This document shows, piece after piece, positions 3,601 to 49,503 of a DNA stretch of 64,000 bases (within the stretch, counting starts at the first letter, position 1; each line of letters begins with the position of its first letter). Made by a program: the position numbers and the translations under genes. The DNA is from Sipunculus nudus. Lineage: Eukaryota > Annelida > Sipuncula > Golfingiida > Sipunculidae. The notes under the pieces were generated by a model that was not told where the DNA came from, did not search any database, and was given only the letters and a program-made list of their open reading frames with translations. The stretch is taken from NCBI GenBank assembly GCA_026874595.1, contig CM049320.1, positions 11,929,964 to 11,993,963 of the forward strand, in the 5' to 3' direction.

Positions 3601-6600
3601 TACAAATACTTTTCCTTCTTAGTCAGTTCAGCTTGTTCCTGCATGTTTTTTTTTTCCAAACTCCCTTCGGAGCATACAGCACAAGCAACTATTACACACA
3701 GAATGAGGCTATTTCAGGGAACCCAGGCTTTCACCTTTTTCAAAGGTCTATAAACACTTTATCCCTGCTTTAACAGCTGATACTGGACTGACAGTAAGTC
3801 GAAGATGATTACAACTTACCCCTGGTGATGTATACTTGTCAACCTTGAATGGTCCAATGTAGAAATCTAACTTCCTGAGAAACAAATTGAAGGCAGGACC
3901 TGTAATGAAAGTTATATGAAAATTCTAGTTTGGCTTCAACCAGGTCACTATGACTTATTTTCAGACTAAGTATAATTCCAAAGAAGTAACACAGACTTTG
4001 TCACCATTATATGGATATCTGTAAGGGCCCTTTTTCATGCAAGTGGAAACATGAGCACTCTGAAAAAAATCTTCCTTTTTCAGGGATTTTACATTACTTA
4101 CACCTGAAAATTACTAGGAGTCAAGGAAAGCCTTGTGACTACACTATTCCAGTCATTATAGTTAATATAAATCTCTTAGTAGTAAATTTGAGCAAATATT
4201 GATTTCTGGGCAAAATACTGTTTTCAACAGGCAGTTAAAACCAGGTTATAAGCCTCTTGCTTAAACTTCCCTGCCTAAAACTTGCAAACCTTGCTTGTTA
4301 CATTGTTAAAGGCACACTGGGCATTAATTATTATCACTGACTAAATTGAATAGAATGTCTGCATATCTATCTACATTTATAAATGCTTGATTTAAGGCAG
4401 CATTAATAAAGATTATGGTTTCTTAAAAAAAAAACGAAATATTTTTACAAGTGTTTCTGCCACTTTTGCCCAGCAGAAAGACATTTCTGCCAGGCAAAAT
4501 GGTTTTCTGCCTTATATATGCCATCAGCAGATCAGAAAGGTATGTTTATGCATTAGAAAACCATCTCTGGCAGGGAATGGTTTTGTCAGGTGCTGTTCTC
4601 TTTATGGTAACCTATGATTATTTAACATCACCTAAATCTGAAGGAAATTACAGCACAGCATTGAGTCTAAGATCATATGATATATTGCAATGTATGATTA
4701 CAAGTTAATAAAGTAACCATTGTGTATATGAAAGCATAAACTGTGGATTCAGAAAATATTGTGGGTTTAAATATGTGGTTTTGACATGAAATACTATCTG
4801 TGGAGTTAAAATTTTCATGGAATAATCATTGTAATTAGGCCTTGTATTAAAATTATTATGTGACCAGACCTGAAATAAAATCAATGCAAAATAATTATTT
4901 ATAAGGAATGCACTGAATGTTTACAAGTTTTACTTGATAACTCATTAAATTAAATGAGTTTTTTCTCACAAACCCGGTGCCAGCGATTGGCTTTATGGCA
5001 CAACAACTATATCTGCTCCCTTTTCTGAGAAGGGGGGTGGGGGGGGGGGGGGGGGGGGGGGGGGAATTTGTGGGTATGTCTCGATAGATTCTTCTAAATG
5101 ATTGTGAGTTTTGTAATTTTGTGGATTAAATCTACCTGTGAACAAAAATAAGAACCCAACAAATACCTCTGAATCCACAGTACATTGTAAACTCACCAAA
5201 AATTAAACCAAACTGCCTGACAGCCATGAACACTGACAGCACCCTCGTCCTCTCCTCGCTACTTGTCACCCTTGCTATATCCGCAACGATAGCTGCACCA
5301 ACAGACGCCCCAACACCTACACATCCAAAACATTGAAATGAAACAAAATATAAGCTATTCCCAGACGCGCCAACCATTTTTGGATTCCTCAACAAATAAC
5401 AGTCAAATCTGCTCTTCAGAAAGTTATATCTATACTGAGAAACCTGTGTTATAAGACAAAAGTGGTCTTAATTGACAGGTGGTCTACACTGGTCGGTTAT
5501 AACCAATGTAATTTTTTTTGGTTATTGCAAAGGTGTTCTTAATAGACGGGTGGTCTTTAAGACAGGTTCAACTGTAGTTAGAAAAATCTGTAATTATAAA
5601 TTATAGATAAAACTGTGACAGATTAGGGTGTGGGAGGATAAATATATTTGTAACTTACCAACCACGAGTCTTCCACCCAGGACTACCCACTTGCTTGTCC
5701 CTATAAAGTACATGATGTTTCCTACGATCTCCCACATATTGGCAAACAGCAGAATCCACTTGGTGCGGTGGGTCTTGTCCGACAAGCTAAAATAGTACAG
5801 AAATAGTTGTAGCTGGAGGGGGGGGGGGGGGGTTTACTGTAGTTTTTATTTTATAAGAAATTCTACACAGAAATTTGGCATCTTGCTGATAGAAACAGTT
5901 GTTATGTTACTATTTATTATATTATGTACAATTATTATTTTTTTCAATAATTCCTCAAATTTTTACATGACAGTTACCAATCAGTATCTGTAATACCTCC
6001 CCCCCCCCCCCCTTCCATTTTATCAAACTTCACAGTTAACTGTGGTTCTGAAATCAGTCACTTTTCACATAAGTAGAGATGGTTGCTCTCTGAATGTGTT
6101 CATGTTAATCCCTGTGATTACCTTCCAAGCAGTGGTCCAGCAAACAGTCCTGAGAAGCTGAAGGCTGACAGGGTCATCCCCAGGAAGTACGGCTCAGCAT
6201 TGAAGCGTTCCTTCAGGTACAACCACAAGCTGGGCAGGATAACAGCTGCAAACAAAACACCATGTTATGATACACCCAGACACTGACACATCACCATATA
6301 TGTGCGTAATTTTAAACACGTGACACTCCAGCTCCTTGGTCTGATAACTCCTTCACACACTCTCTGCCCTGTGACAGAACCAGTGTAATTAGATTAACCA
6401 GAGCGTGTGTCAGATGATTAAAAGTTGGAGCTGGATGCACTGAGCAATAACACTGTCTCATTGGTCTGGTTACAATTCTTTGCTCTGTGGGCACCTTGGT
6501 GTACGTAGTAGGTGCTCTATCCTCAGCCATGTTATGTAATATATGAGACTGGCCACAAGTACAGTCCTACCGAGCTGTCTGAATATACAACACTATTGCC

Positions 6601-16376: not shown

Positions 16377-19264
16377 AAGTGACCCATGGGTCATGACGCT
16401 CAGCTGACTGGGAAGAGATTCGCAAAAGGAAATTTTATCATCTGAATGGTAGTATATACCCATTCAACTGAAGCATCAAACAGATTAACCAACAGGCCAA
16501 AATTGTGTCTGTATTTATATATCTCAAAAATAGAGAAAAAATGTGTAAATAATATACAAGTGGCTCCACAAGTCTGCAGAAACTAATAAAAAGACTTAAT
16601 GGTCAATATGCATGCAAAGAATCATGGTGATCTCTGCATTAGTTGTTACAACTTGTGCCATGTAAACAGATGACAGCATCCTTAAAGGTCTCAAAAATAG
16701 AGAAAAAAATCGAAAAATTGAATAAAATATAGGTGGAACCACCAGTCTGCAGAAACTGATGAAACACTCCATAAACATTATCCATCCAAAGAATCATGGT
16801 GATCTCTGCATACTTCAGCTTTTGTATCAAATTGTTCATTATTCTGAGGGATACTTCGGAGTCCTATAGCTTAAAGGATATGGGTAACAGAGACCTAATT
16901 TCATTTTCCATGGAGACTTTTCATGGATCTCCCTGTGTGTCAAGAATGAAGATTCTAGATCCAGTTGTTATGATTTGTACCCTGTTGACAGATAATCACA
17001 TCTTTAAAGGTCTCAAAAATAGAGAAAAAAAATTGAAAAAATAGAGGTGGCACACCCAGTCTGCAGAAACTGATGGAACACCTCATGATCAATATGTATG
17101 CCAAAAATCATGACCATCAGTGTTGAAGTTATTGAGATACTGCAGTTTTTGTATCAAATTTTTCATAATTCTTAGGGATACTTCGGAGTCCTATAGCTTA
17201 AAGGATATGGGTAACAGAGACCTAATTTCATTTTCCATGGAGACTTTTCATGGATCTCCCTGTGTGTCAAGAATGAAGATTCTAGATCCAGTCTATACAA
17301 TTTGTGCCCTGTTAACAGATGTTCATATCTTTTAAGGTCGCAAAAGTAGAGAAAAAAATTCGTAAAAAAAAAAACGAACAAATATACGTGGTGCCATCAG
17401 TCTGCAGAAACTGATGAAACATTCCATGATCAATATCCATGCAAACAATTATGGTGATCTCTGCATTAGTTGTTCAGCTTTTGTATCAAATTTTCCATTA
17501 TTCTGAGCTGTACTTTGGAGTGCCATAGCTCAAAGGATATGGGTAACAGAGACCTAATTTCAGGTTTCCATGGAGACTTTTCATGGGTCTCCCCGTGTGT
17601 CAAGAATGAAGATTCTAGGTTCAGTCGTTAAGATTTGTACCCGGTTGACAGATAACTACATCCTTAAAGTTCTCATTAATAAAGAAAAAAAATTATAAAA
17701 ATTTGAAAAAATAAAGGTGGCGCCACCAGACTGCAGGAACTGATGGAACACCTCTTGATCAATATGTATGCCAAAAATCATGACCATCAGTGTTGTAGTT
17801 ATTGAGATGTTGCAGTTTTTTTTTATCAAATTTTCCATTATTCTGGGGGGTAATTGGGAGCCCCACAGCTCAAAGGATATGGGTAACAGAGACCTAATTT
17901 CAGGTTTCCATGGAGACTTTTCATGGGTCTCCCTGTGTGTCAAGAATGAAGATTCTAGGACCAGTATTTACGATTTGTGCCCTGTTAACAGATGTTTACA
18001 TTTTTAAAGGTCTAAAAATAGAGAAAACAATTCGTAAAATATCGAAAAATATAGGTGGCGCCACCAGTCTGCAGAAACTGATGAAACATCTAATGATCAA
18101 TATGTATGCCAAAAAATATGACCATCAGTGATGTAGTTAATGAGATTTTGAAGTTTTTTTTAATGAAATTTTTGACAATTCTGGGGGGTACTTTGGGGCC
18201 CCATAGCTCAAAGGATTTGGGTAACGGAGACCTAATTTCTGGTTTCCATGGAGACTTTTCATGGGTCTCCCCGTGTGTCAAGAATGAAGATTCTAGGTTC
18301 AGTCGTTAAGATTTGTACCCTGTTGACAGATAACTACATCCTTAAAGGTCTCATAAATAGAGAAAAAATTTTAACAATTTTAAAAAATAAAGGTGGCGCC
18401 ACCAGACTGCAGGAACTGATGGAACACCTCTTGATCAATATGTATGCCAAAAATCATGACCATCAGTGTTGTAGTTATTGAGATGTTGCAGTTTTTTTTA
18501 TCAAATTTTCCATTATTCTGGGGGGTAATTGGGAGCCCCACAGCTCAAAGGATATGGGTAACAGAGACCTAATTTCAGGATTCCATGGAGACTTTTCATG
18601 GGTCTCCCTGTGTGTCAAGAATGAAGGTTCTAGGTCCAGTATTTACGATTTGTGCCCTGTTAACAGCTGTTCACATTTTTAAAGGTCTAAAAATAGAGAA
18701 AACAATTCGTAAAATATCGAAAAATATAGGTGGCGCCACCAGTCTGCAGACCCTGATGAAACATCTAATGATCAATATGTATGCCAAAAATTATGACCAT
18801 CAGTGATGTAGTTAATGAGATTTTGAAGTTTTTTATGAAATTTTTGACAATTCTGGGGGGTACTTTGGGGCCCCATAGCTCAAAGGATTTGGGTAATGGA
18901 GACCAAATTTCTGTTTTCCAAGGAGACTTTTCATAGGTCTCTCACTGTGTCAACAAATGAAGATTCTAGGTCCAGTCTGTACGAATTTGTGCCCTGTTAA
19001 CAGATGTTCACATTTTTAAAGGTCTCAAAAATAGAGAAAAAATTCGTAAAAAATCGAAAAATACAGGTGGCGCCACCAGTCTGCAGGTACTGATGGAACA
19101 TCTCATGATCAATATGTATGCCAAAAATCATGACCATCAGTGATGTAGTTAACGAGATATTGAAGTTTTTGTATGAAAATTTTGACTATTCTGGGGGGGT
19201 ACTTTGGGGCCCAATAGCTCGAAGGATATGGGTAACAGAGACCTAATTTCTGGTTTCCAAGGAG
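16377..19264 (+). repeat. tandem array of a ~338-bp unit inside a mobile-element end
   Basis: The left edge is AAGTGACCCATGGGTCATGA, containing the 14-bp palindrome TGACCCATGGGTCA, followed by GCTCAGCTGACTG. Then come a short unit and eight full units. The unit anchor (A)GGTGGCGCCACCAG(T/A)CTGCAG lies at 16732, 17046, 17387, 17716, 18054, 18392, 18729 and 19066; the last five are exact and spaced 338, 338, 337 and 337 bp. Each unit carries ACAGAGACCTAATTTC, TTTTCATGGGTCTCCC and TTTGTGCCCTGTTAACAGAT. The right edge breaks at about 19264 in the middle of a unit. The small open frames in each unit recur only because the unit recurs. Confidence 0.9.
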
Positions 19265-19389
19265 ATTTTTCATCGACCCTTTCCGTAAAAGATGTGAACG
19301 GGGTGGTGTGTTCGTCTTTATTTGGGTGCCCTGCCTTTCCATACATGTGGATTTTCACCTCAGCGGGACTTTGTGGACTTTTTAACTTG

Positions 19390-30945: not shown

Positions 30946-33315
30946 GCATTTCACAAACCAGAAGCTGCTTTGCCAGTGTAATTTCCATGAAATTTTTTTA
31001 CAGTTATGGTTAATATCCAGGGCTATATACTATTCAGTATAAACAATACTGACACCTGCTCAGGCCAGAGATCATTCATGCCAAATCCTAAATGTGCTAG
31101 TTGTTTTTTTCCTCCCAAACACCCCTTTGATGTTTTATTTTTCTTATCCTGGAACTTCTTTTGACTAGTTACATGTGAATCATTTCCTGATCAATCATGT
31201 ATTTGTAGTTTATTTTCTGCCAGCATTTCTTCTGTCTGCCCGTTTTATCATTCCAGTGGCCCATTTTATCTAGTTGTGCTTGAAAACAAGCTACACTTTC
31301 TGTCAGAATTAAGTTGCTGGCTCCAATATTGCTGACAAGTATCCCTGCTTACTTCCTAATTAAATCTTTATCTAATGATATTAATACTGACTCAAAGATA
31401 ACCAGATGTTCTAATTGATTAGCTGCCTCTGTCCTAACCAACAGATAATCTTGTAAATATTTAAATCCATTTATATCACCCTATGTTGTCTGTCACAAAG
31501 ACATGCAAAACTCAATGTGCACATATACTTTTATCTTTTGTACACATTAACTGTAAAACATCTCATTGTGTAAATTTGTGGGCTTTTTATTTATTTATTT
31601 TTTTTAATATTAAATGAAATATGTATGGTTCTGATCTTCCTCTGTTGTACAAAGTACAAACCCCATGTTGTATTTTAATTGCTTATGACTACTCTCCAAT
31701 GCTTTTGTGGGTTCTTCAGTAGGTCTTTCTAATTCTCATGGGTTATAACAAATTATCAAAAAGTATACAGAACCCTACAGAAACTATGATCATAACAGTT
31801 AAACAAGAGACAGGTTCCAAGTTCTGCACAGCTCTTAGGTAACACAAAATACAAATACACAAACAGTTTGTCCTTCTTTATTTCAGCCTGGAAAACAATT
31901 GTTGGACAAAGAAAATCAGTTAACAATGTGGCTCTCATCAATGCTTTCCATTCCTCCTTTTTCATTTTATTTTCCAAGTATGAATTCTACTGTCAAAAGA
32001 AACTGTTAATAACACAAGTAACTCAAAGAATACAACTGTGGTATTTGTTTCTGCTTTTCCAATGCTCACTGACCTGTCAGTGGTGATGCATTACTTATGG
32101 CTGACTCAAAAGGTGTAATAATTATCTGGGAACAAATAACTAACCACAAGCCAAGTTTTAATCATTATTACTCTGATTAAAGCAAGGTTCACGACAACCT
32201 GTCAAACAAAGTGACTTCTCTTCTTACCTTGTTGAACCAAGATCCTTTAAAGCTCAATTGTTGAAACAACCCAAGTTTTATTGTTTTAAATCAAATAATT
32301 GGTGATTTCTATGATCATTCTATATCTAATGCTAGTTCATTGTGCTTAAATCCCTGAAAATCAGCCAATAAATTCAAGTGAAACTGTCAATCATATCATA
32401 TAACTTCTCATCACTGTATCCTACACACTCTAAACTACTGTTCAACATATACTGACTGGCTTATATACATTGTTATGTATAGTACAATGTCCACTCGATC
32501 AGATGTGCGACCTAAAGTGCCAACTATAGTGGTCATGTGAGCTGGAATCCCGAGATTATTGGCTCTCTGCTGCTAACCACAAACCAATCTCACATTGTAG
32601 TAGAGGGTGCCTTGTTTGTGAAGAATAACGCGCTAAGACTTCAGGAGTAAGATCAAATCATATACAGTTAGAGTTAATTGCCTGTCTTTCCACCTCATGG
32701 CTGGGTCATCCACACTGAGTGAAGGCATGTGGAGAAAAATAAGAACACTGATGAGTGTCACAGAAAGAGAATGTCTGTGATAATGCAACAGGATGAATGA
32801 ATATGAAGCAATTCCGATGATCATAAAATATATAATAATTAAAATACATTATTTTAAGTAAAGTTATTAAAGTATTTAAACTGCCGACAGTGTTCTATGC
32901 CAAGCTAAGATGATGTGAACATTTTTTAATCAGCCTTTATAGCAAAATAAAATTAAAATGCACAATACTGAAATAGTTTTTAATATTAGTGTTCATCAGA
33001 AAATATTAAAGAAATTATATTCCTGCAGATTTTTTTATGTGAAATGTTCATCAGTTCTACAAATATATTGCAAATATTGTGAGGTCATATTGTGATCCTG
33101 TTGCAAAAGACAAACAAAATCAACTGAGGTAACAATAACTTCAAGAGAAGAGGGGAAAAATCAAACTCAAGGTACCCTATGTGAAATTTCTAAAATGTGA
33201 CAACAGGCAAGGGTTGAGCAAACAGGAGAGTAGGAATCTGGACAGAATTATCAATGTACAGTGAATTGCCATTTATCTGACCATCTACTGGGACAAGTAT
33301 TTCTGTACAGATAAA
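30946..33315. other. no feature recognised
   Basis: AT-rich DNA; nothing supported. Confidence 0.45.
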
Positions 33316-33323
33316 CAAACATC

Positions 33324-34060
33324 CAGGGATGGGGCCAGGTACCTGTACCTAGGTACACATTTCAGAGTACCTTGTACCTGTACCTGCTTCTAAAGTACCT
33401 GTACCTGGTACAAGTTACCCCAGGTACATTTTCATATTTTCAGTTGTTTTTTTTTTTTTTTGGTTTTTTTTTGTTCTCTTTAGTATTAAATTACCTGTAG
33501 TGTAAAATAATCAGCAAGCCATCAGTGCAATAAACTGCTCATGAACTGAATTGTTATCACACCTCTAGAATGGTCACATGTGTGAAATCAGCTGTAACCA
33601 CTAATTGAGCAAATCATTTGATTATACTGTACTTGGTGCATTTAATGAACATTTAGTACACAAATATCATGTTTGTGAAGTATGGTGCCATACAGTTAAT
33701 AAGCTCTCTTACTGTACTTGGTGTACTTAATGGACTTTCCGTAGATTTGAATTTCATGTTGGTGAATGTTTGCCATACATTTAATACGTTCTATTAAAAT
33801 ATACTTTAGCAAATGACTTCAGAATTATTTGATGGAAAAAAGGCATGTTAACTTGCATATATGTGAATTTATGCCGAAAAAGGTTTTTGAGGTGATCCTC
33901 AAATAAATGTACCTGTACCTAGGTACATTCTAAAGTACCTGTACCTGTACCTAGGTACTCTGTGAAAATCAAGTACCTGTACATGTACCTGTACCTGGCC
34001 AATTCTTAAGTACCTGTACCTGTACCTAGGTACTTTCACTTGTACCTGGCCCCGACCCTG
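33324..34060. mobile_element. hAT-type MITE with GTACCT palindrome arrays, complete
   Basis: The 737-bp element is flanked by an exact 8-bp target duplication CAAACATC (33316-33323 and 34061-34068). Terminal inverted repeats are CAGGGATGGGGCCAGGTAC on the left and, reversed, CAGGGTCGGGGCCAGGTAC on the right. An 8-bp duplication with CAGGG ends is the hAT superfamily signature. Subterminal regions (33336-33425 and 33909-34050) are dense arrays of GTACCT, often as the palindrome GTACCTAGGTAC. The centre holds a tandem pair of ~85-bp segments starting ACTGTACTTGGTG (about 33628 and 33712). No transposase. Confidence 0.9.
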
Positions 34061-35304: not shown

Positions 35305-36318
35305 CTAGAATACGGGAAGTAGACAAGCGACTGTGTATCCTCTGAAACCAGAGTAGGACAGGTGAAGTAAGGCATGGATTGAGTGGCAAGGGGAAATAAA
35401 GAGATGTGCATTGCATATTAGCAGGCATGTCTGCAGCAGAAATGTATATGTAGGTGGCGCCACCTGCCACAAAATTCAGAAAATTATCCAACTTGTATAC
35501 AATTGCAAGCTTTTAGGCAGATAAGTCAAACCACTGCCAAGATATGAGTGATGTTATCCCACGGCAGACAAACAAATGGACACTGTGTAAAAATGAACGC
35601 AGGTGGCCCCACCAGTTTTGCGTATGATTAAAAGCTATGTAAGATCTATACACAGGCAAAATTTCAGGAGGATATGTCAAACCAGTCCTGAGATACAAGC
35701 TTGGATGTCTGCAGCCTGAACAGGAAAGTAGGTGGCACCACCTGCCACAAAACTGAGAAAGCTATCCAAGATGTATATACATGCAAAATTTTAGGCAGAT
35801 AAGTCAACCACTGCTGAGATAGGTGTGATTTTATCCCACGGCAGACAAACAGACGGACACTGTGCAGAAATGGTTGCAGGTGGCGCCACCAGTTTTGCTT
35901 ATGATAAAGACCTATGTGTGATCTATATACATGCAAAATTTCAGGAGGATATGTCAAACCAGTCCTGAGATATAAGCTTGGATGTCTGCAGCCTGAATGA
36001 GAAAGTAGATGGCACCACCTGCCACAAAATCAAGAAACCTACCCAGGATGAATACAGATGCTAAATTTCAGACTGATAAGTCCATTCACTTCACAGATAT
36101 GAGTGATTTTATCCCAAGGCAAATGGACAGAAGGACATTGTGCAAAATCGTTGCAGGTGGCGCCACCATTTTTTATGTATGTTATAAAGCTACCCAAGGG
36201 TTACATTTGAGCGAAATTTTTTTCCTGATTGGTCAAATGAGTCCGAAGATATGTGGGTTAATGTGTCAAAATGGAGAAACAGATGGATGTACTGGAGAGA
36301 GGAAAGGTCAAAGGTCAA
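35305..36318 (-). mobile_element. non-autonomous Helitron-like element, copy 3, 5'-truncated
   Basis: On the minus strand the 3' end reads GTCGCTTGTCTACTTCCCG then TATTCTAG before a T, matching copies 1 and 2. Internal units carry exact GGTGGCGCCACC at 35453, 35879 and 36156, separated by repeated TATGATAAAGCTAT, CAAACCACTGCC and GATTTTATCCCACGGCAGACA phrases. The element loses likeness to the others after GGTCAAAGGTCAACG (about 36318), so the TC terminus is missing. Confidence 0.75.
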
Positions 36319-39300
36319 CGCTAAATATTAGGAAATTTCATGTCATAAAATATTTCATGATATTGCATCTTAATAATTTGTTTGGAAAAATGAAAAGGGC
36401 CAAATTATTTTGACTGTTTCTGACAAAGGGAATGAGTGATAAGACTGAATTGAAGGTACAAGATGAACTTAACAATGACTTTGTGGTGAACAGGAAAGGC
36501 ACTAGTAAATAATATGAATACCAAAATTTCTTCAGTTGGTTATTTAGATGTGAATAATATCATATACATGTATTTTAAATACATAGGTTATGTTTCTGTT
36601 GTGAAAGATGCTGTAGTATAAGTGCACTAATTTACAACTGTTAGTTTCCATAAAATGAATGCTAAGTAACTGGTTTTAGTTTTTCTCCAAAATCATTCTC
36701 TTGAAAGCAAGTGCAGGAACCCAACTATATATCCAATTGGCCATTTTCACGTATCTATATAATTCAGGGTGAAAGTCGGCTCGCAAGATGAAAGCCCTTC
36801 TAACTTCACAACTTAGGTCAATTTTTGTATACACAATCAATGTTTGATGTATAAAAGATTTTGTATCTTATAGTTTTTACATTTCAAGTTTTACAGTTTC
36901 ACATCACTGACAATACCAGTCTCATCTGATTCTTCACTTTAATTCCTGCTCTACAGGGGTTTGTTTATTCTTGAGCTGCTTCTGTGTTGTGAGCAGCATA
37001 CAATGCAAGCAGCCAAAACTGGCGAAAGGATAATTTCTCTTCATATGCAAGGCACCTTGGCCAGTACCCATTCATTCTTGGGAAAAGGGGGCTATCTCTC
37101 GCCGTAAAGACCTTTGAGAATATGTTAAACAGGGTATACACCAATGATGCTCAAGTTTTGAGCCACTTATCCAAAAAATTTCTAAAGAAAACTTAACAAT
37201 TCAGCAGCTCTTTCAAGGAACTGGTCTACATAGTTTGATGAAGATGAGCAGAAAAAGACAGACTTCCAAAGCAACAACTTTGACAGGACACATATTTTGG
37301 CTGCTGGGATGTTTACATAAATGTTCATGTGGTTGCAAAAATCCACCTTGAAAGGAAGAGCTCAGATGGCAGCTCTCACAATGATGTATTATAATGAATG
37401 GAGTGGAGGTGTGTGGTATGGAGGATTAAAAAGTTCTAGCTTTTCTCTGCGACAGATTCACTGAGACATTTGTTATTAACCAGAACAAAGTATACTGTAG
37501 GTGAATAGGTGAATTACTGAGTAAAAAGAAGCACAACAATTAAAGTTTTCCTTTAGATATAACTGAGACAACATAATGAGTACAGTATCATCTTCTAACA
37601 ACTTAGAGAAAATATAAAACTGCACATCCATGCTGATAAACTGACGATGACTAGTGACTACGGGAGACTGATAAAATACAGTGATCAAAGGTAAGCCTAC
37701 CCTTTATTTTTTAGTTGCCCAGACTAAAAGAAAAGAAAAACAGCATATGAATAATGTATCAGTTTTTATCACCTACCTTGACAGACATGTAAATACGCTA
37801 CAGGTATCATGAACAGTATGTAGTAAATCTATGCACTAAGTAAACCAGCACTAAAGAGGACACTGTCATCCTCATCTGCTGCAACTATTGATATAAAAAT
37901 AATCCTGGAATATGCATCTTCCTATTAGCAAGGCAGATTATTAGCTCTGACAGATCTTGAACTAGCGGTCTGCTCTGCCAACTATTCTATGAATTATGAA
38001 CAAGCCCACATGTCATGATGTGGAAATCATAATGTCCTACAAAAATCCAACAGATTTTAAGTAGTGAGTACACAGTAGACAGTAGTTAAAACTTTTAACA
38101 TGCTGTATTAACAAGAACACATGCACTGGAAAAAGGAGTGTTTTATGAATGGTCAGATTCTCATTAAGATTTTGACAATGCAAACCATTTATCTTAAAAT
38201 AGTAACAGATTTTTCTTAAACATAAAGGAAGAGTAAGCAAGTCATCTGACTGCTCTGAAGGTCTTATTCATAACTTAAGAAATGGCTGGAGAGCAGCCTG
38301 GCAGAACATGGTCTCCCTGAGCATAGCTAAAAAAAGAGTCTTGCTTGCCTGAAGATGTGATAATGGATTTACCGTTATCAGTTATGATTTTCAAAATCAT
38401 GAACAAGGTACCACAGACTGAACATAAACTAGATATTGCCAAGAACTGATAATTATTCTCTACAGACTTTATTGCCAGTTAAATAAAACCCCTGTTGGAC
38501 TCCGGTACCACTTAATATATATTATACATCTTAATGCTTGCTCACTTGTCTGGATTTCTTTTGATATGCAATTATGATAAAAAGATATATAAATGACTGA
38601 TTACACATATAAAAGATGTCAGAAAACACTGCATACATTCTGCATTAGCTTATACACCTGGAAGTTAAAATTATGGTCAATATATATATATAACTTCACA
38701 ATAACCTGAGCTAAACAATAAAGTTTGTTAAATGGAGATATGAGGGAAAGAAGACTAACTACTGCCCAATGCTCAAAGACTAAATAACATAAAGGCTACT
38801 GGCAAGATGGGTGTAAAAATGCTAATTAATATCAATCGTGCTAACTTAATTATCTGCAAAATCAATAAAGAACTAAATTTGCTAAACACGCAACTGTCAT
38901 AATGTGAAGAAGATTCATAAAATTACATCATACTTGAAAATATAAAGACGTAAGTTCTATAAAAAAGGTGAAACATTCAGCACACCTGCCCTCGTTGCTT
39001 GGTAACAGACACATACCCATAATATCCTCACAACAACACTGGCAGGAGTCCAGTCTGATAACGTTCATAAAACAGGTAGTGGCACTCAAAAAACAAATAA
39101 TACAAACCATACTGCACCATGAGTACTCATAAAAGCAGCCGTCAGTCATTATGCTTGGTCATAACAACCAATAAAAGACCATAAACATGCTTCAAACATT
39201 AAAACACACACACGCACATTTGAACACTTTAATCATAATATCTGTAGTTGTTTAATCTTGATCATCATTCCTTAGGCTTAACACAGTGTTTCTTGATCTT

Positions 39301-40985
39301 TTTTGGTAATAGATGGTTGGTAAAATATCCCCCAGGCTTAACAATTACCAATTATAAAATACTTCCATTAATACATGTATTTCGGAATAATCATTATTAT
39401 TGCTGGATATGTGATCAAAGTCAAGCCTTATGAATATGCTTGACTTTTTAATGTTCTCTTTACATTAGACTTTTTATATTACACAGGACAGCTCTTTCAT
39501 AAAAACCTTTATGATTTAATTTGTCACAGAAATGCTATGTAAATATATACCCAGTGTTTAGCAAGAAGAGTTCTAACATCAAAATCCTACGTGAATATAA
39601 CTCAAAATTTCCATCTCTCAAACCTTTTAAATGGTTAGTGCAAAGCAAACATGGATGGAATACCTATATTGGCACTTGTACTAAATAAAGACAAATTTTC
39701 ATACTTTTTCCAAAAATATGAAAAATTTTTGTTATCAAGTTTATTAATGAGAGCACAAAAGCAGAACAAGAAAAGGTTGCGTTTCTTCACCATCCTTCAC
39801 CCATTTAGAATACAGATAGTTTTATAAAGCATCGTCCCTGTGCCCAATAACCCCCACCACCAATCCTTCTGTCACCAGGTTTTATAATGAAAAGTTTGAA
39901 TTTACTGCAAAGACTCTGTTAACAAAACATCTTCACACCCGGAAGGTAAGACCATTAACCATTTTAACCAAATAATTGCTACATAATATTCCTTCAAAAT
40001 TTCTCTTCCCTGTAATAAACAGCTACATTTGGTATAAAGGTATCTGCATCATTTAAATGGAATGAGCCACTCATAATAGTTGGATAGATGATGCTGTATG
40101 TTATCCAATATTCAATTACTAATTAATATATTGCAATTAAATCATATTAATCAGAAACATAGAAACTCTAGTATTTATGTAAATCCCCAACCTATGGAAA
40201 AGCAGTCTTTATTAAATAGGCTTTTGACAGGCATATATAGTAGAATACAATGGAACATTCAGATCAGAAGTATCTTCTGAGGACATCCCTAAATTAACAG
40301 CACAGGCCAATTTCACCTTTACACTCCATGGCTCATTCTAATTTCTTGGTATGATTTTTTAAATTTTTGATACACAGTTAAAAATTAAAATTCGACGCTG
40401 GTGAGATGGCTTAATATTGGACTAAGTGGTCTAATATGATACAACTGAATGCTGTGTGCAAGAGTAAAACATGTTTATTATTATTTTTAGTATATTGGTC
40501 AGACCAAACTTTTAAAAAGAAACATTTAAATAAGGCTGAGCATGTGATACTCCGGTTCAAATTGTTAGCATTGAGATTTCAATTCCATTTTTAAATATAC
40601 CTAAAATAATATAAAATGTAATTACTTAAACACCTTAGACAAAACAGTGTCATTTTTCTTTCAGTTAATGAAGCATACTTATTTTGTACACAATGCCCTT
40701 GTACAATACCGCTAAAATTCAATGGTCATCATGAGAAAATTGACTTTAATTGTATTCATTCATGCTGTTAACCTCAGGGGAGATTCATATGTTTGACCAA
40801 AATATCAAAAGTTTCTGTCAAAACCAATATAATCTGTTGTCGTCTAAAATGTTATTGGTTCCATTGTATTCTAAAATGACTGTCAATCTTGAATTACATT
40901 CTGTCTGAATCACAGACAGATCTAACTTGTGCAGAGCAAAGCAAAGAAACATAAAACAAAGGAGAAAATAAAACGTAACCACAAC
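36319..40985. other. no exon located; probable synaptobrevin 3' region
   Basis: The final C-terminal exon and 3' UTR of the minus-strand synaptobrevin gene should lie here or further left, but no acceptor with a convincing short coding tail was identified. A slightly more complex stretch at 36960-37330 has no recognised likeness. Otherwise AT-rich and featureless. Confidence 0.4.
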
Positions 40986-40991
40986 ACTTAC

Positions 40992-41043
40992 CAACAATGA
41001 TAATTATAATGATAAGAATAATGACTATCAAAATGATCCACAT
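40992..41043 (-). CDS. synaptobrevin alternative TM exon b
   Basis: 52 nt between acceptor GCATTTCAG and donor GTAAGTGTTG, phase 0 to phase 1. It reads [17 protein letters not shown] plus G. It is the distal of two interchangeable TM exons. Confidence 0.88.
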
Positions 41044-44000
41044 CTGAAATGCACAGAAAACAAATATTCATGCACATCAATATGCAAATGAAAATGCATC
41101 AGACAAATAACTACCCACAATGCAGTTTGTTTCAGTCATGTGACCATGCCTGACTGCCATATTTAGATGGGAACCAGACACAGTCACAAACAGTAGAACA
41201 CACAGGTACAACTCCATGATATGAAGGTTAATGCTTACAAAACCCAAGAAATAACAAATTCATCATATGACATAGTACCAAACATATAAAAAGGAAATAA
41301 AATTCAACCTGAACTAATTCTGATTTTCACTGATTCACATATCTCCCGAAAAGAAAATTCTGTTTTTTATTCATTTTAATTAATACATTATTTTAAACTT
41401 TTTTTGGAAGGGGGGGTTGTTCTGTTTGTGTGCTACTATTTACATGCTTGAGGAAGGGCAGACCTTAGCAGCTTTACACCAGTAATCAGTAAATAGTTCC
41501 AGTTTATCTCTAAAATCCATGTTAGGTCATGGATAGTGTTGAAATTCAAAATGGCATTTTTATAGAATATATAGAGTAAAACTTTCTCTAGAATATTTTT
41601 CTGGCCTCTCATGAACAGGTCAATAATTTCTTTCACAAAGAGTAAATTTTTCAAGAATGAATATAAATTGCACATTTCATTGGTAGCCAGTGACTGACAA
41701 ACCAAGGTCTGCAGGTCTTACCCAAGTCAACAACACATAGTGAACAGAAATACTACAACAGCTATTCAGGCTACACATTTATAACAGTCAGTCAAAGGGC
41801 AAGCGACAATTACCGCACTTACCAACAATTATTATTATGATGACAAGTATAATTCCTCCCAGAATTAACATCATCTGCAAAGTCATACATGGCATTATTA
41901 TCTCTCTTTAGCATTACTGTGCTATTATCACCATTGCAAGCTATAATTGGTACCTATATACTTGACATACTTTCATGTTATTCCCCTAAAATACTCATAG
42001 CTGGGACTGTTATTGTATTCACATTCACTGCCCAAGCATTAACATCTAGTTCTTCCTTATTTGAGTGTATGTGTGCAATATGACAAGGGGGACAATATAT
42101 GTAAGATCATTGTACACTAGAATGTGTCACATTTTCATAATGACTGACAGAGTATCTGGAATTCAGCTTGAGGACAACTTTGAAGTAATGAAGTTTGAAC
42201 ATGGACAGGTTTATATTTATACAAGGGGATGCATCATCTTACTTTCTCCAAAGCTAATCATTTGAATATGACTCAATGGTACCTTAATTTTTATGAATCA
42301 ACACATACCTTTAAAAATAAACAGGGATACATTTGAATATTTCATAGAATAGAGGAAAAGTTTGGCACAGAAAATGAAACATTTTTTTTCAAAGCTTCCT
42401 TTAATATAAGGGGGACATTATTTTTTTCAACTCTTCTGATAATGGCCTGTGAGGTATATACAGTGAACCATATAATGATGTTTCTAACTAAATGTCACTA
42501 TATTCCTTTTTTTGAATGGAGGATTTTATATGAAGTATATAAGGGTCTAGGAAAGTTGCACTGCCATTAAAACAGTCATACTGAGCAAAATAAATATTAA
42601 CTGTGGATCCTGATTACTTCATGATGTGCAATAACTGATTTTGCCAAATATAATCTGTACTGATATTTAAGGATCGTTGAGTCTGATTTAATAATTGTAT
42701 AATCATTACAGATCTTAACTGTATACAATTTTCAATTTATAGGACCTGAAGGGTAAATTATTTTTTTTTATTTTCATCCAGTCTTATATGGAGTTCCCTG
42801 TTCAAACCTTAGGACAAATTTAAGGAATGTTAAGGACCATAAGCATCAGATTTCATCGACCAATCTCCATATTAGTCATACAGTTTCTGAAGAATGGCTA
42901 AAATAGCGGTTTAATTTGTTCATCCAAACAACTGATGCTCCATCCTTTGCTGGTGAATTCACAAATTTAACCATGATCACTGGAGACTTCCGGGACTGGG
43001 AGAGGACATTATTTCGAGAGATCATATAGAGATTGAGACCACACTGCACAGAGGTACAATCAGACCTTTCACAGCTAAAATAACTTTTTTTAGCATTCAA
43101 CAATGATAATAGTGAAAGAGAGAACACAAATGCAAAATTTACGGACTTTCATGGACTTCTGGTTATTCTTATGCAAGTTTAACAATATTTATATATTTCA
43201 AATCTATAGTTTTGAAGTCTAGGACTTTCCTGGTTTTAAGGGGCCCATATAAACCCTGTTATAGTTCTACTAGACTGGATGGTTTACAGCTCTCACCTTT
43301 AGGTTCTTCCACCAGTATTTTCTCTTCAGCTTGCCTGCACTGGCCTCAAACTGGGATGCTCCTGCTTGCAATGCATCTGTGATGGACAAGCAGACAATGT
43401 TCATTCAACTGAGGAAGGGATGATATCAGTTCTTTATACAATAATAAAAAAAATTTCTTGCGCTATATCATGATATCTTTATATGAGTATCTGGAGCAGG
43501 AACTCCAGCACTTGCCTTCATATCTGTTCAAGGAATACTTATTAACCAGCAGATCCCTAGAGTTTTGAAGAAAGGGATTCTTTAAGTTTGTCTAACACTG
43601 TGATTTCTAACATACCAATACCCATATAATTTTTATTATAATAATTAATTCTATATAGAATTTCATATGATCCATTAAAATAAATGTCATCCCTGAAAAT
43701 AAATGATTCTCTTAACACAGAGAGACCCTTGTGATGCCAGTTATGCGATTATCTTAAGGTAATAATCCTAAAAAGGCTTATTATGGACAATATCTTTGGA
43801 CAAAAACACATATCACAATGATAAGGAAGTTAGCAGTACAATTATCAATGCTGTCACATATAAAAGCTTGAAAGACAGGTGTTCATTCAAACTGTGACCA
43901 TTCATGTAGATTTCACAGGGTAATTGCCCACTGATGTTTCTTACCTGCCCTGTCATCAAGTTCTGAAAGTTTTTGATCTCTCTCCAATACCTTGTCAACG

Positions 44001-47000
44001 TTCACTCTCATAATATCAACCACCTACAAATACATCAACAGCTAGGGTTATATTTACAATTATCATCAAGGCAGGAAATGTTTATGTGAGGATTCTGGTT
44101 CAAATCAACAAAGATTGCGCAAGTATATGATGTCAAAAGTGATACAAGTACTGGTATCCAATTTGCATCTATGCAATGTACAACCACAACTTATTCGCTA
44201 AAATATTAAGTAGCGATTAACTATAGTATATCTTCAGCAAGCTTGCTACCCAAAGAATACTCCTCCCCTGATATTTATCTTGGTCTTACTTCAAGTACAA
44301 ACAAAGAGTAAACCAGGTTTGTTATCTGTTTAATATTTAAGATCTTTCTGCCATGACCTCTCAAACAAAGAATGACAACTATATGAGCAAACCCCAAGAG
44401 TCTTTACAGTAAGTTACACAAAGTCTTGAAAACAGAGCAACCTGAACACAATAGTTTCATTTAAATTTTTCAACTTTAAATTAACTTATGTTTTGGCAGT
44501 TAATATTATTTCCTCAATATCATACAAGCTGCCAACAAGCAACCCTGACAGTACATTCCAACTTTTTTTTGTTAACTAGTGATTTGTAAGAACCTGACAG
44601 GTTCTCCTCCAGCAGTCTGTGCTGTCAGGTAACTAACCTCATCAACTTGGGCCTGTGTCTGCTGCAGTCTTTTGCTCTCCATCTGTCCACGAGGTGGTCC
44701 TCCTGGGCCCCCAGACCTGCCAATCAAAAAAAGACATTAAATAGTGACCCATTTTTAAGATACAGCCCATGTAAATGGTCATACAACTCATACAGGAAAC
44801 ACAAGCTGAAATCAAGATACATTATTACTACTCTAGCTACCATCAATTTACATCTATTTGCCATTTATTCATAAACCTAATAAACAAGGGAGGTTTTTAT
44901 TGGTGAGTGCATAAATGTAACCCAGTGTCATGTTTCTTTAATAACAGGTTTACTAGGTAGTTTAATAATATTAGCATAGTTCAAAAGATTATATAAAACT
45001 ATATATATATTCATGAATAAATGGTATGATCTACCTGGCTACAAACATTTCAAAAATTCATCTGATCTTACTATTTATCAATGACAAACTTCTTATCATA
45101 AGAACTTTATGGGTAATGAGGAGCCTGTGAAATGATATTTAACAGAATATGACAGATTTATAGAAACAATTTGTTAACCAGTTTAGATCCAATTAGGAAC
45201 TGAAACACTAACATCCTTTATTCCAAATGCTTTATAAATGTAGGTGAGTTAACTCTATACTCATGAGCAGTACTAAGTCAACCACTCAAAGGTGACCAGC
45301 TTATGTCATAAACAGCAATACAAACGTGATTCACTACATAAACAATACATATATAAGCTCCATATAATATAAAGCATCTCTAGCCAAGTTTAAAACCAAA
45401 ATAAAGTGGCGATATCATACCATGCTTACCATAAACATGCAGTCCCAGTGTCATACACTGTTGACATGTATACTCTGAATCACCTACGTTAGTCAATAGA
45501 TCAGCTCCTGGTCACATGACTAAACAGATAGATCACATGACATTGGATTATTGTGTACTTAATTATGACCTGCAGTGAGTCATTTTTTTACCCTTAGGGT
45601 AAGTTAGTAGATCATATGCATGTGCACTGATATGAACTTAAAAAATAAAATTTATACATATCCATTCAGAAGTGTTTCTCACTGTATAACCACTGGTAAA
45701 ATTTACATCCTGTTCTTTGTAAATCGTATCTTATAAATAATCAATACATGTGAACCAGAAAATCCTTCCCCTGTGTATATATAAAGGCTGTTTTGATGTA
45801 AACAAAACTCAATCTGATTATCATGTCATTCTTGGCAAAATAAAAATCCAAAGTACATTTCCATGCTTGAACCCAAGTAATATAGGAAAACAGTATTCAG
45901 AAAGCAGTGCTCATTGATCGTTTTAATGAGAATTTCTATGTTTCTAAATTTTTTCTTGTGTTAGGATTTCAAAACAAGCATACAAAGAGTTCAGAACAGG
46001 TAATCCTTTCATGTTTCGTAATCCAGAGTAATTTTTTTCTATTGAAGGAAATTCCCCAGTGATAAACTGAAGTACACATTATTATATGAATATCGTAAAA
46101 AGGACATACTCTCTTGATTTAGGGTTTAAATTTCACAAAACTTTTGCTTGCCTGTGCATGTTTCAAGAAACTCACCTATTATTATAATGTTACAAGCAAG
46201 AGAATGGCACCTAGTGATATTAATCATTTTTTGACTTTTCCAATGGAAAACAACCCAGGAGGTTTGTTAGTACCAATACCTATTATATTTTCCAGTTTAT
46301 TCAATGAATTTCTAGAAACTTGCATTTGGCACTAACTTGTCTCAACTGAAATCAAATGGTTAAGAGTATGCAACATCTGGGGCCCTGGAAACTGCAGAAA
46401 ATTGATGTGGTTGATGTCATAAAATGATAAATTAATCTAAAGAAAAATGACACCCATATCACTGACACTGTAATAGAATACTGCAACAGAATATTTAAAT
46501 CAGGATGTGGCATAGTCCCTGATTAACGAATGATTCATTAAAAACTAATGTTAATACTGTATACTAGTATAATGAATATCTGAACAATACCAACAGTTGC
46601 AGTATGAAACAACAGAAACAGTGTTTTGTCTGATACGACAATGCTTATTTGTGAGCAGACTCATATCTTATATACCACAAACCTCAATAAATGTATAATT
46701 TTAGCATTACATGAATAAAATCTCACATGAGGAACCACTAATTATTTCATGTTACATTGTTAGCCTTAGAGGAAAGTCAATATTATTCTTACCATATTTT
46801 CAATAAATTTAATAAAACATGATCTTATCATTTATGAATCTTGGAATGATTGGACCAATTCCTCTAAATTTATAAAGTAAAGATATTCTTGTCTCATACA
46901 TCTATTTTGCTAAAACCATAAGAGCACTGGCTTACAGAATGAATCTGAACTTTACTCCTTAAAGTTTTAATTTTTTCAGTTTCAGCAACTGTGTTAACAA

Positions 47001-48939: not shown

Positions 48940-49503
48940 AATGCAACTGTCAATCATGTCTTAACATCATGTAACTGTCAATCATGTCTTAACATCATGT
49001 AACTGTAAATAATGTCTAAACATCATGTAACTGTCAATCATGTCTAAACATCATGTAACTGTCAATCATGTCTAAACATCATGTATCTGCCAATCATGTC
49101 TTAACATCATATATCTGTCAACCATGTCTTAATATCATGTAACTGTCAATCATGTCTTAACATCATGCACCTGTCAATCATGTCTTAACATCCTGTAACT
49201 GTCAATCATGTCTTAACATCATGTAACTGTCAATCATGTCTTAACATCATGTAACTGTCAATCATGTCTTAACCCCATGTAACTGTCAATCATGTCTAAA
49301 CATCATGTAACTGTCAATCATGTCTTAACATGATGTAACTGTCAATCATGTCTTAACATCATGCATCTGTCAATCATGTCTTAACATCATGCATCTGTCA
49401 ATCATGTCTTAACATCATGCAACTGGCAATCATGTCTTTACATTATGTAACTGTCAATCATGTCTTAACATTATGTAACCATCAATCATGTCTTAACATC
49501 AGG
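48940..49503 (+). repeat. 28-bp minisatellite, about 20 copies
   Basis: Near-perfect tandem copies of ATGTAACTGTCAATCATG then TCTTAACATC (28 bp). Variants include TCTAAACATC, ATGCATCTG and ATGTATCTG. The array sits in the intron directly upstream (minus sense) of the synaptobrevin Pro-rich exon, close enough to overlap its branch-point zone. Confidence 0.97.

Follow-up and report, generated by a model that had tools for sequence, protein, structure and literature searches.

The SNAP-25 gene contains the alternative exons 5a and 5b, which alter the SNARE/cysteine region and not a transmembrane helix. Like the locus described here, where exclusive use is probable, this neuronal SNARE gene has a duplicated pair of exclusive exons. 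An exchange of the membrane anchor is described for the syntaxin gene unc-64 of C. elegans, where the exons 8a and 8b alter the anchor and are switched by the CELF protein UNC-75; two studies were at odds over which syntaxin form rescues movement (PMC4946901). In unc-64 the anchor exons of a SNARE are exchanged by splicing, as would be the case in the present gene. However, unc-64 encodes a t-SNARE of the plasma membrane and uses last exons, whereas a v-SNARE and internal exons are concerned here; in unc-64 the variation is confined to the final 14 of its 25 anchor residues, whereas positions 95 to 111 (VAMP2 numbering) would be exchanged here. The C-terminal splice variants of VAMP1 belong to the same R-SNARE class and also arise by splicing near the C-terminus, but the extreme C-terminus alone varies, whereas here the helix would be swapped and the tail kept in common (PMC3123573, in which SNAP-25 splicing is also cited). 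The vertebrate synaptobrevin-1, synaptobrevin-2, cellubrevin and VAMP8 have different anchors encoded by separate genes (PMC4972536, PMC7239655), whereas here a single gene would supply anchors with 33 to 67% isoleucine and valine in their first nine residues. Among the literature matches listed, none described a synaptobrevin whose anchor is exchanged; this result concerns papers, and gene annotations of other animals may contain such a case. Alternative anchors are already known for the C. elegans syntaxin, and the synaptobrevin pair would be a further instance.

The share of isoleucine and valine in the first nine anchor residues is a published correlate of fusion-pore speed (Dhara et al., PMC4972536), and engineered polyI anchors were found to accelerate fusion-pore expansion (Dhara et al. 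2016, PMC4972536). A similar gain was reported for the natural VAMP8 anchor; the VAMP1 and VAMP8 anchors altered the kinetics, but not proportionally the total secretion (Dhara et al. 2020, PMC7239655). The importance of position 100 is disputed. Secretion was only partially rescued by the G100V mutant and depolarization-evoked exocytosis was almost gone with G100V/C103V (Hastoy et al. 2017, PMC5460238), whereas G100L was without effect (Dhara et al. 2016, PMC4972536).

Structure of the gene

The window, i.e. the whole 64-kb stretch of DNA that was analysed, was found to contain a synaptobrevin gene on its minus strand (Table 1). Judged from the translated exons, it is a brevin-type R-SNARE, i.e. 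of the vertebrate VAMP1/2/3 class. The Pfam Synaptobrevin profile (PF00957, cut-off 26.4) gave 118.1 bits with form A, which carries anchor exon A, and 117.4 bits with form B, which carries anchor exon B. The top matches in the PDB were VAMP2 entries (1.8e-47 with anchor A); the fourth was the synaptobrevin entry 1l4a, which we take to be that of squid. The present protein and 1l4a contained in common an 11-residue stretch at the place where VAMP2 has FETSAAKLKRK. Exons 2 to 4 encode the SNARE motif and the juxtamembrane stretch, and exon 3 contains an arginine that is presumably the central layer arginine of the R-SNARE. The start-codon exon was not located, and the known part of the protein begins with SGGPGG, ahead of the SNARE motif. 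In both forms the juxtamembrane WWKNLK, which matches the KYWWKN stretch typical of this class, was followed by 18 hydrophobic residues. The small residue of VAMP2 position 100 was present in form A and absent from form B.

Table 1. Exons of the synaptobrevin gene, with positions in the window
Feature	Position	Strand	Remarks
Synaptobrevin exon 2	44638..44716	-	opens with the last base of a split codon; alignable to VAMP2
Synaptobrevin exon 3	43945..44023	-	exit phase 1; 26/26 residues as in VAMP2 (PDB 2kog alignment)
Synaptobrevin exon 4	43297..43376	-	Asp codon finished; ends WWKNLK; exit phase 0 directly before the anchor
Anchor exon A	41823..41874	-	52 nt; entry phase 0, exit phase 1; VAMP2 position 100 is Gly
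Anchor exon B	40992..41043	-	52 nt; entry phase 0, exit phase 1; VAMP2 position 100 is Ile
Putative common last exon, coding part	37704..37723	-	split codon giving Val, then WATKK and TAA

Several repeats and open frames were present around the gene. Upstream of the known synaptobrevin exons, at 48941-49501, a 28-nt unit is repeated 20 times as a minisatellite (91% match). Two tandem arrays, at 16646-19273 (unit of about 338 nt) and 35450-36173 (about 277 nt), contained a common palindrome-like core, GGTGGCRCCACC; the latter lies downstream of the putative last exon. Short arrays with GTACCTGTACCTGGTAC- or CTAGGTAC-like units were present at 33339-33412 and 33901-33982, about 560 nt apart, and are perhaps the ends of a mobile element, which is a guess. 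Beside the gene, the minus-strand open frames 812-1963 (383 aa) and 5132-5467 (111 aa) resembled parts of a multi-spanning membrane transporter.

The two anchor exons

An earlier note on this DNA had described two anchor exons of equal length and phase. Their coordinates, 52-nt lengths, peptide readings and phases were as claimed, with acceptors ending in cag and donors starting with GTAAGT. The window contained 389 AG-N52-GT spans (231 on the minus and 158 on the plus strand), of which 78 and 52, respectively, were open, and exons A and B were the only ones with a frame of 17/17 hydrophobic residues. Such a frame arose once in 100 simulated 64-kb strands, generated by a first-order Markov model that was trained on the minus strand and matched its dinucleotide make-up.

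Exons A and B were identical at 12 of 17 residues (permutation mean 5.9, p about 2e-4) and at 37 of 51 bases (permutation mean 26.2, p about 2.5e-5), when the residue or codon order of B was shuffled; the similarity rests on 17 codons, since the segments are short and isoleucine-rich. Four of the five differing residues were found among the first nine. A repeat search of 37700-43300 gave 13 families of direct repeats, and the pair formed the longest of them, with 65 nt at 77%, comprising the exon and 6-7 nt past the splice site at each side. The repeat search that covered this region also listed 17 inverted repeat pairs. By eye, the acceptor of exon A appeared less pyrimidine-rich than that of exon B. 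Taken together, A and B are very probably real, well-formed alternative anchor exons.

A third anchor copy was sought on the minus strand among AG/GT-flanked open frames of 46-91 nt, entered in phase 0 and left in phase 1, with at least 85% hydrophobic residues; the scan gave only A, B, their extensions and one span at 5354, outside the gene. The hexamer UGCAUG, presumably an Rbfox site, was present on the minus strand at 41074, where it precedes the start of exon B by 26-31 nt. It was rejected as a notable regulatory motif because it is frequent in the window (38 on the minus and 14 on the plus strand).

Putative last exon and predicted splice products

Among the 587 pyrimidine-AG sites scored between 40980 and 24000, the acceptor at 37723 ranked first by a naive score, devised ad hoc and not a trained splice model, by which several other sites also scored well. 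A second last exon may exist besides 37723. The last exon first picked by eye, at 31887 (G/GC TGA, with a final glycine), was rejected, as it ranked about 75th of the 587 sites by the same naive score. The terminal G that had been claimed after IIIIIV turned out to be the opening base of a codon interrupted by the intron, which with the best-scoring last exon is GTC (valine), so that the anchor ends in IIIIIV-V. The sequence V-W after the anchor is also found in mouse cellubrevin (table in PMC4972536).

When either anchor A or anchor B was joined to the exon at 37723, the predicted chain was 102 residues long (start codon not included), with an identical luminal tail in both forms. Inclusion of both exons gave a predicted chain of 117 residues, consisting of anchor A followed by a 21-residue hydrophilic luminal tail, and skipping of both gave a predicted soluble SNARE of 87 residues, ending SGQLKNKG. 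Inclusion of both exons would shift the frame, as the earlier note stated, but the frameshift alone would neither remove the anchor, as anchor A is kept, nor make the exons exclusive.

Proposed splicing of the anchor exons

We propose an ancient tandem duplication of the membrane-anchor exon in a brevin-type gene. One of the two anchor exons, A or B, would be spliced to the exon that ends in WWKNLK (43297) and then joined to the common last exon (37723), and the outcome would be two full-length v-SNAREs with the same SNARE motif and different transmembrane helices. As an overall explanation, this duplication of the anchor exon with alternative splicing to a common last exon is probably correct. 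Two anchors behind one SNARE motif, as first suggested in the earlier note, is what the sequence fits best, in view of the length, the phases, the splice dinucleotides, the confined homology and the common last exon. The use of both exons, largely as alternatives, is likely.

It is unlikely, though worth weighing, that A and B are cassette exons that are not strictly exclusive, so that double skipping or double inclusion would yield further regulated products. With 779 nt between them, A and B lie far enough apart to be spliced to each other. The products skipping both (87 residues) and including both (117 residues) end in the last exon and may escape nonsense-mediated decay, which need not remove products terminating in the last exon. 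Against cassette exons stand the equal length, the phase and the homology, which are hallmarks of exclusive pairs. The sequence criteria of Pillmann et al. (PMC3228551) for mutually exclusive exons are a similar length, compatible splice sites and frame, and homology, a combination also present in only 0.56% of the non-exclusive fly X chromosome exons (90/16,180; PMC3228551). All three were found in the A/B pair, with 52 and 52 nt, the same splice sites and phases, and homology. The minimum similarity of 15% (PMC3228551) was taken here as the share of the self score; the BLOSUM62 score between A and B reached 62% of one self score and 61% of the other.

Age of the proposed duplication and possible selection

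The flanks of A and B, 300 nt on each side, showed no similarity when compared with 300 shuffles (p 0.58 upstream and 0.78 downstream). In simulations without indels, the similarity of 300-nt intron copies could be recognised in 63 of 100 trials at 0.75 substitutions per site and in 8 of 100 at 1.0, so that intron homology fades in this range. An unselected copy of exon A remained intact in 16 of 40,000 simulations at 0.5 substitutions per site and in none of 40,000 at 0.75 or more, where intact means that the splice dinucleotides, the open frame and the full hydrophobicity were retained and the simulation was run without indels. If the introns were copied along with the exon, then, since the introns are now unalignable and a neutral copy would have decayed, exon B would have been kept by selection. 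With exon-only copying, the missing intron similarity gives no date for the duplication. Of the 11 non-Met codons with identical residues, 5 differ synonymously, which also suggests age, although the count is small.

These results bear on the possibility that one anchor only is ever produced and that exon B, or else exon A, is an idle or decayed copy. Exon B does lack the glycine that Hastoy et al. termed highly conserved (PMC5460238). However, it has retained an open frame of 17/17 hydrophobic residues, an acceptor that is pyrimidine-rich by eye and the donor GTAAGT, which a neutral copy rarely or never did in the simulations at the distances above, and we consider an idle copy quite improbable. 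The pair appears to have arisen by tandem duplication of an exon long ago and to have been retained by selection.

Paralogues and related sequences

The Pfam profile search of the host genome (1.43 Gb, 153 contigs) matched 11 exons, including one from this gene. The retrieved loci were translated on the plus strand, and five minus-strand loci on the minus strand. The anchor exons were compared in five genes, this one and four others, for which the paralogue names are our own labels. The VAMP4-like gene (C5:67567550 onward) contained, like the present gene, a phase-0 break directly after the juxtamembrane stretch, WWKECR being followed by GTAAGT, and one separate anchor exon, MRLLIAVVVIVILLIIIGL and a stop. 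In the 10 kb read, no second anchor was found in this gene; the next candidates were 15/17 and 14/17 hydrophobic and unlike its anchor. In the C2 and C14 genes the juxtamembrane stretch and the anchor were found in a single exon, and the C14 gene exits in phase 1 after VVIG, like exons A and B. In the C10 gene one exon comprised the juxtamembrane stretch together with the beginning of the anchor, if not more of it, and GTAAGT was present within the anchor. The family thus has a separate anchor exon in another gene as well, whereas the duplication of the anchor exon was seen in this gene only, among the five genes compared.

The exon 3-4 peptide had no confirmed relative in IMG/VR (80 pattern matches) or in the GTDB contigs (595), which is no surprise for a gene from an animal. 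A paper on Tritonia refers to mollusc synaptobrevin sequences (PMC4342343).

Anchor composition and possible effect on fusion-pore behaviour

In VAMP2 numbering, the first codon of the anchor exon corresponds to Met95 and the sixth to position 100. Anchor A contained Gly100 and an added Gly101, and anchor B contained Ile100 and Val101. Isoleucine and valine made up 3 of the first nine residues in A and 6 in B, compared with 2 in mouse synaptobrevin-1, 3 in cellubrevin, 4 in synaptobrevin-2 and 7 in VAMP8 (PMC4972536, Table 1). The differences between A and B, as read from the two exons, are mostly in the helix half singled out by Dhara et al. Form A would act like the neuronal synaptobrevin, as Gly100 and the low isoleucine and valine share are kept, whereas form B would resemble the VAMP8 anchor in speeding the widening of pores and would serve larger or non-neuronal granules. 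The views of Hastoy et al. and Dhara et al. on position 100 give opposite predictions for B, and the A/B pair is a good test for that reason. The link to fusion-pore tuning, put forward in the earlier note, has a basis in published work. It is plausible that the switch alters fusion-pore behaviour, to which we would give somewhat less than an even chance, and it may affect secretion.

The BLOSUM62 scores with synaptobrevin-1 were 49 for A and 36 for B, those with synaptobrevin-2 were 49 and 43, and those with cellubrevin were 30 and 49, respectively. The peptide of exon B opens with MW, as cellubrevin does. Out of 17 residues, A and B had 10 and 11 identical to synaptobrevin-2, 8 and 8 to synaptobrevin-1, and 6 and 9 to cellubrevin. 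By BLOSUM62, A is nearer to synaptobrevin-1 and -2 and B nearer to cellubrevin, which is a hint only, as plain identity does not separate them likewise.

These scores could also indicate that the switch affects sorting, i.e. the target vesicle or organelle, or synaptophysin binding, and not the pore kinetics. The MW start of B, its nearness to cellubrevin, the nearness of A to synaptobrevin-1 and its slightly greater score with synaptobrevin-2 are in line with this, as are the splice variants at the C-terminus of VAMP1, which change its targeting (PMC3123573). On the other hand, synaptobrevin-2 with polyL, polyV or polyI anchors still reached chromaffin granules (Dhara et al.), the 2020 variants are reported to do likewise (PMC7239655), and A and B have the same predicted luminal tail; an effect on sorting in place of kinetics is rather unlikely.

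With regard to the pore, splicing in one gene may provide the set of anchors that in vertebrates is spread over several genes, A being an anchor of the neuronal synaptobrevin-1/2 kind and B one of the cellubrevin/VAMP8 kind for large or non-neuronal granules. This is a tentative suggestion, which we hold to be rather unlikely as it stands. Within it, B would be nature's equivalent of the polyI anchors made by engineering, which is equally speculative.

Significance

The debate over whether the SNARE anchor tethers passively or takes an active part in the fusion pore has so far drawn on engineered anchors and chimeras. If the proposed splicing is true, the gene would provide a natural experiment in which the helix alone is swapped and the SNARE motif and the tail are constant, with most of the differences between A and B in the anchor half singled out by the mouse work. 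It would also place the dispute over Gly100 in an evolutionary frame.
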